Translations under genes and position numbers: made by a program
In this document: positions 3,677 to 55,969 of the stretch, piece after piece
Numbering within the stretch: the stretch's first letter is position 1
Layout of the letters: every line of letters begins with the position of its first letter
Source of the DNA: Acidobacteriota bacterium
GTDB lineage: Bacteria > Acidobacteriota > UBA6911
DNA length: 64,000 nt
NCBI GenBank assembly: GCA_031271905.1
Contig: JAISUT010000028.1
Coordinates: 1-64,000 of the forward strand
Direction of reading: 5' to 3'
Notes under the pieces: generated by a model
What the model was told of the DNA's origin: nothing
Databases searched by the model: none
The model's input: only the letters and a program-made list of their open reading frames with translations

Positions 3677-3798
3677 AGGGCACCTCTAAAAGCTCGCAGA
3701 CAAGGCGTCGCCGCAAATCGAAAAGCGGAGTTTACCAAGGTAAATGAGCATTTTCGATCAAGGCGCAACGCAGCGTCCGGGGTTTTTAGAGGTTCCCT
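3677..3798. repeat. Dispersed gene-end repeat, long form (copy A)
   Basis: The ends are AGGGCACCTCTAAAA (from 3677) and TTTTTAGAGGTTCCCT (to 3798), an imperfect terminal inverted repeat. Inside, the family core is split by a central hairpin (ATCGAAAA at about 3717-3724 with TTTTCGAT at about 3751-3758, and GTTTACC with GGTAAA at the tip). The central segment is flanked by a direct CAAGGCG at 3701-3707 and 3759-3765. The element begins immediately after the stop of the second lipoprotein gene. Confidence 0.85.
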
Positions 3799-5456: not shown

Positions 5457-6892
5457 CCATGAACGCATCCCCAAGAATCGTCCGTCTGGCATTGGCCGTC
5501 ATCCTCGCATCCCATCTGTGTTTCGGGCAGGCGGCGCAGACGTCCATCCCCGAAGGCACCAGGATCAAGGTTCGCCTGGAGCAGAGCCTGTCGGGCGATT
5601 CGGCGCAGGAGGGGCAGCATGTCCAGCTCTCGGTCGTGGACGAGGTCAAGGTCGGGGACACCGTTGTCATCGCCCAAGGCGCGAACGTGACCGGACAGGT
5701 GACCCTCGCCCAACCCAAGCGTCGCATGGGGCGCACCGGCAAGATCGACTTCTCCATCGAGCGGGTCACCGCCGTAGACCAGTCCTACATCCCCCTGCGC
5801 TACACGGCGAACAGGACGGAGGGGGGGAGCACGGCGATCTCGACCGGCGTGCTGACGGCCGGAATCGCCATCGTCTTCTTCCCCGCCGCGCCCATCGCCC
5901 TCCTGCGCCGGGGCAAGGAGGCCAGGATAGAGGCGGGGACGGTGTTCGACGTGTTCACCGACCAGGCGCACACGCTGTCCGTCCCGGCGGCGACCGCAGA
6001 CGTCGCCGGCGCGAGGTACGCAAAGCTCGATGTCGCATCCACCCCCGCCGGGGCGGATGTGGAGCTGGACGGCGACTTCGTCGGCAGCACGCCGCTGGAG
6101 CTGGAGCTGGAGGCGGGTGCGCACGAGGTCGTCGTCAAAAAGAAGGGGTTCCAGCCGTGGCGGCGGTCGCTGAAGACCAGCGGCGCCACCGTCCGCATCA
6201 GCGCCGACCTGGAGCCGGACTCCGCCGTGGCGGAGGACGCCCCCGTCGCGTCGCCCGCTCCGGCGGCTCCGGCGGCACCGAGCGCGGCTCCGGCGCCGCC
6301 GGGGCTAGACGGCACGCGGTGGACATATTCCGACTCCGAGGAAGAGTACGAGATCGAGTTCCTGCAGGGAGGGCGGCTCCGGGTGGGGCAAGCCGCCGAC
6401 ACCACCCCCGACGATGACACGTGGGAGGCGGGCGGGGACGCCGTGACCTTGTACCGGAACGGCCGCTACGTCACCCAAGACGGCAAGATCGGCGGAGACG
6501 GCGTGATTCGCGGCACCGCCGTCAACGAGCGCGGCGAGACCTGGTCGTTCGAGATGCGCCGGTCGGAAGGCGGAGAAGGCGTCGCCAGCGCGCATGCAGC
6601 GACCGTGTCCGCACCGCCGAGTCTAGGCGGCACGCGGTGGACATATTCCGACTCCGACGGCGAGTATGAGATCGAGTTTCTGCCGGACGGGAGGCTCCGG
6701 GTGCATCAGACCGCCGACACCACCCCCGACGATGACACGTGGGAGGCGGGCGGGGATGCCGTGACCTTGTACCGAAACGATCGTTATGCCACCTACAAGG
6801 GCGGTTTCGACGGAGACGGCGTGATTCGCGGCACCGCCGTCAACAAGAAGGGCAAGACCTGGTCGTTCGAGATGCGCCGGTCGGGGCGCTGA
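5453..6892 (+). CDS. Secreted PEGA-domain protein with duplicated C-terminal module
   Basis: The 479-residue product has a signal peptide (hydrophobic about 10-28). A beta-rich N-terminal region (about 33-175) includes a hydrophobic stretch at about 128-150. A PEGA domain follows at about 190-252 (KLDVASTPAGADVELDGDFV, GAHEVVVKKKGFQPW), then an Ala/Pro linker. Two 86-residue modules at 286-371 and 392-477 each start DGTRWTYSDS or GGTRWTYSDS and end WSFEMRRS. PEGA domains are generally envelope-associated beta modules. The start overlaps the upstream gene by four bases. The near-identity of the two C-terminal modules at DNA level points to a recent in-frame duplication. The function is unknown. 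Confidence 0.75.
   Translation: MTMNASPRIVRLALAVILASHLCFGQAAQTSIPEGTRIKVRLEQSLSGDSAQEGQHVQLSVVDEVKVGDTVVIAQGANVTGQVTLAQPKRRMGRTGKIDFSIERVTAVDQSYIPLRYTANRTEGGSTAISTGVLTAGIAIVFFPAAPIALLRRGKEARIEAGTVFDVFTDQAHTLSVPAATADVAGARYAKLDVASTPAGADVELDGDFVGSTPLELELEAGAHEVVVKKKGFQPWRRSLKTSGATVRISADLEPDSAVAEDAPVASPAPAAPAAPSAAPAPPGLDGTRWTYSDSEEEYEIEFLQGGRLRVGQAADTTPDDDTWEAGGDAVTLYRNGRYVTQDGKIGGDGVIRGTAVNERGETWSFEMRRSEGGEGVASAHAATVSAPPSLGGTRWTYSDSDGEYEIEFLPDGRLRVHQTADTTPDDDTWEAGGDAVTLYRNDRYATYKGGFDGDGVIRGTAVNKKGKTWSFEMRRSGR
6308..6883 (+). repeat. In-frame 258-bp tandem duplication inside the PEGA gene
   Basis: Unit 1 (6308-6565) and unit 2 (6626-6883) are both exactly 258 bp and share long identical stretches, for example ACCACCCCCGACGATGACAC and the run encoding WSFEMRRS. 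They are separated by a 60-bp linker encoding an Ala/Ser-rich spacer. Differences cluster in the first third and around the variable VTQDGKIGG / ATYKGGFDG segment. Confidence 0.85.
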
Positions 6893-11254: not shown

Positions 11255-11362
11255 GGGAACCCCTAAAAAGCTCGCAGGCGATCGAAAGGCGGAGTTCGCC
11301 AAGGTGAATGGGCGTTTTCGATCAAGGCGCTGGCACCGTCATCCGGGGTTTTTGAGGTTCCC
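11255..11362. repeat. Dispersed gene-end repeat, long form (copy B)
   Basis: The ends are GGGAACCCCTAAAAA (11255) and TTTTTGAGGTTCCC (to 11362). The central hairpin is kept (GATCGAAA at about 11280 with TTTCGATC at about 11316-11323), with sequence changes relative to copy A that largely preserve pairing. The CAAGGCG repeat on the left is degraded. The element starts 11 bases after the murA stop. Confidence 0.8.
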
Positions 11363-14622: not shown

Positions 14623-14687
14623 AGGGAACCTCAAGAAACCCAGGACGCTGCGTTGCGCCTTGTCTGCGAGGTTTTTAGATGTTCCCT
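14623..14687. repeat. Dispersed gene-end repeat, short form (copy C)
   Basis: The ends are AGGGAACCTCAAGAAA (14623) and TTTTTAGATGTTCCCT (to 14687), with the core GCTGCGTTGCGCCTTGTCTG. It lacks the central hairpin of the long form. It lies in the 291-base gap between folK and dacB (14603-14893), the remainder of which holds no gene I can see. Confidence 0.85.
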
Positions 14688-41421: not shown

Positions 41422-41456
41422 GCGCCGGGGACTCCATCCTACCGGCGGCCCTTGAT

Positions 41457-41520
41457 GGGAGCCTCTAAAAACCCCGGATACTGCGTTACGCCTTGTCTGC
41501 GAGCTTTTTTGAGGTTCCCT
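41457..41520. repeat. Dispersed gene-end repeat, short form (copy D), overlapping a CDS
   Basis: The ends are GGGAGCCTCTAAAAA (41457) and TTTTTTGAGGTTCCC (to about 41519), with the core CGGATACTGCGTTACGCCTT. It matches copies C and E except that the core has GTTACG where the others have GTTGCG. On the minus strand that change makes a TAA, which is the stop codon of the hemerythrin gene (41486-41488). Confidence 0.88.
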
Positions 41521-41920
41521 TGATGTGGGCGGCGACCTTCTTGTCCTCTTTCTTGATGTGGTTGATGAGCCAATCGCCCACGTTCGAGCTCACCTGCACG
41601 ACCAGCGCGACCGTGGGGCCGTCCCTTTTCATCTGATCCGCCAAGTTCCTCACCAGCGCGGTGAAGCCGTCGTGCAACTGCTTGTGGCGCGCATAGTCCG
41701 GATAGCCGTACCGCTGTTGCAACATCTGCTCGTCGGTGAAGTGCTTCACCGTGTAGTCGTGCAGGAAATCGACGGTCGTGCCGATCTCGGCCTTCCCCTT
41801 CCCCTGCGAACATGCTTCCAAAAGGTTGTTGATGGCCTTGATCAGCTCCTTGTGCTGGGCATCGATCTGCGCGTTTCCGGTCTCGATGTCCGACGACCAC
41901 TCATAGACGACGGTAGACAT
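41486..41920 (-). CDS. Bacteriohemerythrin
   Basis: The 144-residue protein starts at ATG 41920 (MSTVVYEWSSDIETGNAQID). The di-iron ligands follow the canonical order: His in AQHKEL, H-x3-E in VKHFTDEQML, H-x4-H in YARHKQLHDGF, and a final H-x4-D-like helix WLINHIKKEDKK. It should bind O2 reversibly for sensing, storage or delivery. The last ten residues (GTSKKLADKA) and the stop codon are encoded by the dispersed repeat at 41457-41520, so the native end was probably shortly after VAAHIK. A longer frame upstream of 41920 is not family-like. Confidence 0.92.
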   Translation of the reverse strand: MSTVVYEWSSDIETGNAQIDAQHKELIKAINNLLEACSQGKGKAEIGTTVDFLHDYTVKHFTDEQMLQQRYGYPDYARHKQLHDGFTALVRNLADQMKRDGPTVALVVQVSSNVGDWLINHIKKEDKKVAAHIKGTSKKLADKA

Positions 41921-54562: not shown

Positions 54563-54625
54563 GGGAACCTCTGAAAACCCCGGATACTGCGTTGCGCCTT
54601 GCCTGCGAAGTTTTTAGAGGCCCCC
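54563..54625. repeat. Dispersed gene-end repeat, short form (copy E), overlapping a CDS
   Basis: The ends are GGGAACCTCTGAAAA (54563) and TTTTTAGAGGCCCCC (to 54625), with the core CGGATACTGCGTTGCGCCTT. On the minus strand the right end reads GGC CTC TAA, the last codons and stop of the APC permease gene (stop at 54614-54616). It fills almost all of the gap between that gene and the coiled-coil gene. Confidence 0.88.
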
Positions 54626-55969
54626 CAAATGGTTTTTATTTTCAGATCCCTTGTTTTTGCTGGTGAGGAAGTAGCCGCCGAGCGAGGCGAGGATGCACGC
54701 CCCGACCCAGAGGCACAGCGTCCAGGACTCCGTGAAGCCGAAGTAGAGCATGACCCCCGCCAGCGCCAGGTAGCAACAGGCGGCGGCGATGACCGACGCC
54801 GACGGGCGCGGGTACTCCTTGCGTCGGAACGCGACCCAGAAGATCGAGAAGACGGTCAGCGCCGAGAAGAGCGTCAGGATGGCGCCGACGTTGTTGAGCA
54901 CCTCTTGCAAACGGTAGACGAAGACCAGGAACAAGGCGATGACGCCTTGCAGCACCACGGCGCCGACGGGCGGCTTGCCCGCCTTACCCCGGAGCGCCGC
55001 TGGCAGGAAGCCGTCCCGCGCCATCGCGGCGTAGACCCTCGGGCCGAGGAACGTCATGGCGCTGACGGCGGAGACGAAGGCGATGATCGCCAAGACCGAC
55101 ATGCAGGCGGCACCCTCCTCGCCCAGGATGTGCTTCATGATGAGGTGGCCGAGCGTGATGAGGCTCGGCTCGTCCTTCAACACGGCATTTTTCATGTTGT
55201 AGTTGAAACCGCCCGCGATCTGCTCCGGCGTCAGGTTGGCGACGAAGACCCAGTTGACGAAGAGGTAGAGGACGCCGACGATGACACACCCCAGCACCAG
55301 GGCGCGCGGCACGTCGCGTTTGGGATCTTTGAATTCGGAGGCGGCGTAGACGGCGGCGTTCCAGCCGCTGAAGGCGAAGGCGACGTAGAAGAGGTTGCGC
55401 ATGAAGGGGCTGAGGGGGAACCCCTCCGACGGGGTGGTCGGCGTCCAGGCGGGCCAGGAGTTGCTGCCTCCGATCAAGCCCGCGACGATGAAGCCGACCA
55501 CCAAGATGAGCTTCAGCGCCACCAGCGCGTTCTGCGACGCCAAGGAGAAGCGGAGCCCGACGGCGTGGACGGCGGTCAGCACAGCGATCATCAGCGCGGC
55601 GAAGACGACGGGGTTCACCCCGGGGTGCAGGGTGCGGGCGAACGCCCCCGCCGCGACGGCGTCCAGCGCGATGGGCGCGGAGAAGCCGAGCAACAGCGAC
55701 GCCCATCCCGCCAGGTAGCCGAGCGCCGGGTGGACCAGCGTGGAGAGGAAGCGGTACTCCCCGCCCGACTGCGGCACGAGCTGCGCGATGCCGGAGTACG
55801 CCTTGGCGCCGGCCAGGGCGAACAGCGTGCCGATGAGCCACGCCGCCAATATCTGCTTGGGGTTCAGGTCTTGCGCCATATATCCGGTGCTGATGAACAC
55901 CCCCGCGCCAATCATGTTGGCGACCACCATCCCCACCCCGGAACACATCCCCAGCCGACGATCTTTCAT
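54614..55969 (-). CDS. APC-family amino acid permease
   Basis: The 451-residue membrane protein starts at ATG 55969. About 12 hydrophobic helices are visible. The first-helix motif GVGMVVANMIGAGVFISTG is the APC unwound-helix substrate site. AYSGIAQLVPQSGGEYRFLS, YVAFAFSGWNAAVYAASEFK and RVYAAMARDGFLP are typical of the LAT/amino acid transporter branch. It probably exchanges or imports amino acids. The C-terminal tail (TSKNKGSENKNHLGGL) ends within the dispersed repeat. Confidence 0.9.
   Translation of the reverse strand: MKDRRLGMCSGVGMVVANMIGAGVFISTGYMAQDLNPKQILAAWLIGTLFALAGAKAYSGIAQLVPQSGGEYRFLSTLVHPALGYLAGWASLLLGFSAPIALDAVAAGAFARTLHPGVNPVVFAALMIAVLTAVHAVGLRFSLASQNALVALKLILVVGFIVAGLIGGSNSWPAWTPTTPSEGFPLSPFMRNLFYVAFAFSGWNAAVYAASEFKDPKRDVPRALVLGCVIVGVLYLFVNWVFVANLTPEQIAGGFNYNMKNAVLKDEPSLITLGHLIMKHILGEEGAACMSVLAIIAFVSAVSAMTFLGPRVYAAMARDGFLPAALRGKAGKPPVGAVVLQGVIALFLVFVYRLQEVLNNVGAILTLFSALTVFSIFWVAFRRKEYPRPSASVIAAACCYLALAGVMLYFGFTESWTLCLWVGACILASLGGYFLTSKNKGSENKNHLGGL

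Follow-up and report, generated by a model that had tools for sequence, protein, structure and literature searches.

Comparison With Known Repeat Elements

REP and BIME elements, which are associated with RAYT (Y1) transposases, are palindromic, occur in many copies and are found near gene 3' ends. The repeat family described here, one copy of which holds the end of a bacteriohemerythrin gene, resembles them in copy number, palindromes and position at gene 3' ends, but it has target duplications and resides in a genome without a Y1_Tnp protein. In Coxiella burnetii, QMITE1 and QMITE2 affect functional genes only at the 3' end, where the element encodes the last residues (pntAA, mutT, nagZ), and 33 residues of EnhC of C. 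burnetii Dugway derive from a QMITE (PMC5896051). Like the present family, these are small elements with terminal inverted repeats (TIRs) that lie at gene 3' ends and encode C-termini (PMC5896051). The present case differs in element and host, in that target duplication and orthologue ends document the insertion, and in that proteins unrelated to each other share one tail peptide.

Rickettsia palindromic elements (RPEs) are likewise short palindromic repeats that turned protein-coding in frame, and such in-frame fusions have been reviewed (PMC2229807, PMC10969869). They sit inside genes, whereas none of the 147 copies found here lies inside a called gene and only 3' ends are affected. The Correia/NEMIS, ERIC and YPAL elements are also MITE-like and mostly intergenic, form hairpins on transcription and give rise to ORF fusions (PMC2229807); they belong to other bacteria and were compared with the present family by description. 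The phenomenon is already known from the Coxiella QMITEs and the RPEs, to which the family described here adds a new example; the gain lies in a well-documented new element family rather than in the principle.

A Bacteriohemerythrin Gene That Ends in a Repeat

The window, i.e., the whole stretch of 64,000 nucleotides that was analysed, encodes a bacteriohemerythrin of which the last 10 codons and the stop codon lie inside a repeat copy (Table 1). The protein scored 121.1 bits with NF033749 (cut-off 84) and belongs to this curated bacteriohemerythrin family; it also matched TIGR02481 and the Pfam family Hemerythrin. The minus-strand reading frame ends ...KKVAAHIK-GTSKKLADKA-TAA, and the third base of the lysine codon before the tail is the first G of the element. 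The copy measures 63 bp, matches the family query at 92%, has both TIRs and is predicted to fold as RNA at -25.3 kcal/mol (z -4.3). The first-pass annotation had read both GTSKKLADKA and the TAA as repeat-encoded, and this reading stands. The C-terminus and stop codon of the gene are supplied by mobile repeat DNA.

The match to TIGR02481 covers residues 7-132 of 144 and the alignment with PDB 2avk reaches residue 134, both short of the tail. Since the tail lies beyond the metal-binding domain, its effect is probably neutral. The tail would be translated in the cell, and the tailed protein is predicted to give DKKVAAHIKGTSKKLADKA as its C-terminal Glu-C piece and GTSK, K and LADK as tail pieces under trypsin.

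Hemerythrin homologues are about 50% identical at closest (at most about 53%), and their ends are therefore indirect evidence for the former end of the gene; HIRGEK, YLSTR and HLKK are the termini of close homologues. The best counterpart in G002, a sister species of the same genus, is 43% identical and ends HIKNLAAEK; the sequence 3' of it is unlike the neighbourhood of hemerythrin in the window. Short tails, from a few up to about 12 residues, are frequent among the homologues, and GTSKKLADKA might accordingly be read as ancestral hemerythrin sequence that resembles the repeat by chance or was copied from gene to repeat. We give this reading practically no chance: the tail was present in 0 of 31 homologous loci (other genomes and paralogues), the likeness to the family extends over 63 bp including both TIRs, and the same element-encoded peptide closes the unrelated MurC, ModF-like and RND proteins. 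It is refuted by the element running on past the stop codon to its other TIR. The same tail in homologues without the repeat was also the observation that the first-pass annotation had set against its own interpretation, and the 31 loci did not contain it.

Table 1. Coordinates of the repeat copies and of the genes that end in them (window positions, except murC)
Feature	Location	Strand	Basis
Long-form (121 bp) copy, intergenic, showing the central part that the short form lacks	3677..3797	+	Family search
Diverged copy, variant right arm, outside the strict set	11255..11362	+	Family search
Short-form copy, intergenic	14624..14686	-	Family search
Relic of the original TAG stop	41439..41441	-	Empty-site join
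Target-site duplication, copy 2 (TTGAT on +, ATCAA on -)	41452..41456		Flank comparison
Short-form (63 bp) copy of the MITE-like element, GGGAACCTC...GAGGCTCCC	41457..41519	-	Family search, RNA fold
In-frame TAG within the element, predicted to close the gene with CAA in place of the TAA	41465..41467	-	Frame read-through
TAA stop, CAA in the family consensus	41486..41488	-	Copy comparison
Bacteriohemerythrin gene, 144 aa, ATG to TAA	41486..41920	-	ORF, family profiles
Element-encoded C-terminal peptide GTSKKLADKA	41489..41518	-	Translation
Target-site duplication, copy 1 (TTGAT on +, ATCAA on -)	41520..41524		Flank comparison
Short copy holding the stop of the amino-acid permease gene	54563..54625	-	Copy search, gene call
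Amino-acid permease gene, end ..KNHL-GGL, last residues from the element	54614..55936	-	Translation
murC, stop in long-form element	gene L096:5786-7207 (G000:C64:125786-127207), element 7141-7261		Gene and element overlap

Copies, Structure and Origin of the Element Family

The genome is a draft assembly of 3.4 Mb in 67 contigs, of which 1.98 Mb (58%) was examined in stretches for copies. With the window copy as query, at least 43 matches in the genome were obtained at E<=0.001 (40 of 283 first-look candidates were scored). The 1.98 Mb contained 147 interspersed copies, 57 of a short form of about 63 bp and 90 of a long form of about 121 bp, with the ends GGGAACCTC...GAGGTTCCC. The short-form consensus is GGGAACCTCTAAAAACCTCGCAGACAAGGCG-CAACGCAGCGTCCGGGGTTTTTAGAGGTTCCC, and the consensus sequences of both forms carry TIRs (GGGAACCTCTAAAAACC / GGTTTTTAGAGGTTCCC). 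The long form has about 58 bp more in its centre, between two CAAGGCG words, and a deletion between these direct repeats may have produced the short form. Strong hairpins are predicted for both.

Exact 4-bp target duplications flank 44 of the 120 copies with clear ends, compared to 2.7 when flanks were shuffled among copies, and the targets are AT-rich (roughly C-TNAA-G). By its structure the family is to be classed as a MITE; with 63 or 121 bp its members are too short to encode a transposase. The genome-wide transposase search comprised PF01609 and PF01797. No match to PF01797 (Y1_Tnp) was obtained across the genome, while 5 of 14 control genomes gave matches, and a RAYT/REP origin was ruled out as the genome has no Y1 transposase. 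An autonomous DDE_Tnp_1 insertion sequence was rejected as partner, since the sole PF01609 match (locus L114, G000:C54:1667-1909) is a remnant without the ends of the element. Long TIR pairs were also considered as the autonomous element and discarded, being mostly built on the ends of known short copies. No relatives were found on plasmids or phages and an Rfam scan of the window gave no match.

The element is present in G002 with the same ends and 71-76% identity (L027, L051), and two G002 genes end GNL within it. A search of eight other species of the genus gave no match. The diverged window copy at 11255-11362 has the right arm GGCGCTGGCACCGTCATCCGGGG, and similar arms occur at L101:383-447 and L091:12086-12148; together these are perhaps a subfamily.

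Insertion Site and Original End of the Gene

The direct repeat that flanks the hemerythrin copy is 5 bp long, one more than is usual in the family (4 bp). Joining the flanks gives CAC ATC AAG GGC CGC CGG TAG, which reads HIKGRR followed by a stop, and the predicted empty-site allele is ..CACATCAAGGGCCGCCGGTAG. According to this reconstruction, the protein once ended VAAHIKGRR. The first-pass annotation expected relatives to end directly after VAAHIK; GTSKKLADKA is indeed absent from them, but the reconstructed old end lies three residues further.

We consider it very probable that a MITE-like element inserted into the last hemerythrin codons with duplication of its target, and that a C to T change then shortened the resulting tail. 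A non-autonomous element of about 63 bp, moved by a transposase acting in trans, would have transposed into ATCAA and split off the original HIK-GRR-TAG end. Translation would then enter the left end of the element in one of three frames, which would yield a lysine-rich tail of 17 residues with the consensus GTSKNLADKAQRSVRGF. The insertion is likely to have come first and the point change, CAA to TAA, after it, by which the tail would have been reduced to GTSKKLADKA. The insertion would have been tolerated for its position at the extreme C-terminus.

Alternatively, the element could have inserted past an intact stop codon, with a later stop loss that extended the gene into it. Such placement has precedent in the family, in which 20 element ends start 0-1 bp past a stop codon. 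At hemerythrin, however, the flanks carry a direct repeat, the join restores an immediate in-frame stop, located beyond the element, and the sequence from HIK to the element contains no mutated stop, all of which makes a stop loss very improbable. The idea of the first-pass annotation that repeat DNA became coding sequence of this gene is supported by the target duplication, the empty-site join and the homologues without the tail. Its proposed course, an extension of the gene beyond its old stop followed by closure through a point change, is not: the element landed three codons ahead of that stop and brings a TAG of its own. Insertion with target duplication makes this a case of a small mobile repeat rewriting a protein end, with flanks, target duplication and lost C-terminus all readable.

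The Stop Codon Inside the Element

At the position of the stop, GTTGCG (CAA in the hemerythrin frame) is found in the window's other full and clear copies as well as in the majority of those across the genome. Among the 101 copies of the first sample, the codon at the stop position is CAA in 66, CGA in 18, TAA in 3 and something else in 4, and was unscorable in 10. The first-pass annotation attributed the stop to a point change in this copy, and the counts agree with that origin of the TAA; its view that this change closed the gene does not hold, as the in-element TAG would close the frame anyway. This TAG stands in the context GGT TTT TAG of the short form, and with CAA in place of TAA the frame would read through to GTSKKLADKAQRSIRGF. 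The ModF-like ABC gene (L104:7864-9453) shows the CAA outcome, with the end KGTSKKLAGKARRSVRVF. Because the same frame holds a TAG seven codons on, the point change only shortened the tail; on the codons as read, CAA to TAA would have cut it from 17 residues to 10 and was unneeded for closing the gene.

Other Genes Ending in the Element and a Possible RNA Role

None of the 147 copies overlaps a gene start. In 13 of them (about 9%) a stop codon lies at least 10 bp inside the element, and a further 12 overlap a stop by 1-9 bp. Gene calls were hexamer-based and made in the present analysis, and of the 13 at least one is open to doubt: a 783-aa 'gene' (L074:15530-17881) has no family match and its frame is probably spurious. 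Genes that run into the element include, besides the permease and murC of Table 1, those for TrmJ-like, ModF-like and RND permease proteins.

MurC now ends FLKGTSENLADKASPQVEKRSLPG, with an element-encoded tail of 21 residues. The empty site (target duplication TGAA) gives the end FLKG, and all eight orthologues from the genus whose sequence reaches this end (69-74% identical) stop 1-4 residues past FL, with ends such as FLN, FLR, FLKK and FLRVEK. The profile TIGR01082 ends at the insertion point. This suggests that a foreign tail of 21 residues is tolerated in a core cell-wall gene that is expected to be needed.

The AT-rich target preference in a genome of 65% GC would place stop codons among the suitable sites, hence repeated hits at gene ends. 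Selection would remove insertions that hit gene interiors or starts, and those in the last codons would survive as a short tail is tolerated. A reading that is compatible with the insertion account and concerns the persistence of copies is that these are retained as oriented RNA elements at 3' ends (a terminator or transcript-end hairpin), with the coding overlap as a side effect. The strong hairpin is in line with this, of the two strands the sense one folds better, and in tandem contexts the left end is turned towards the stop of the upstream gene in 79 cases versus 24 (79/103, p 5e-8). However, this bias was uneven over the three samples (62:13, 8:8 and 9:3), the excess of G.U over A.C in the stem rests largely on one position and is not counted here as a sign of selection on the RNA, and insertion preference with purifying selection suffices for the 3' position without any function. 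We regard such a role as possible but rather unlikely. More doubtful still is a combined view, in which insertion at or around stops together with an oriented transcript-end hairpin would make the family a recurrent source of stops and of the shared peptide KGTSKxLADKA in unrelated proteins, kept since the hairpin helps the host.

Lastly, the window contains two direct repeats of 274 nt at 6293-6884, which are 86% identical with a spacing of 318 bp.
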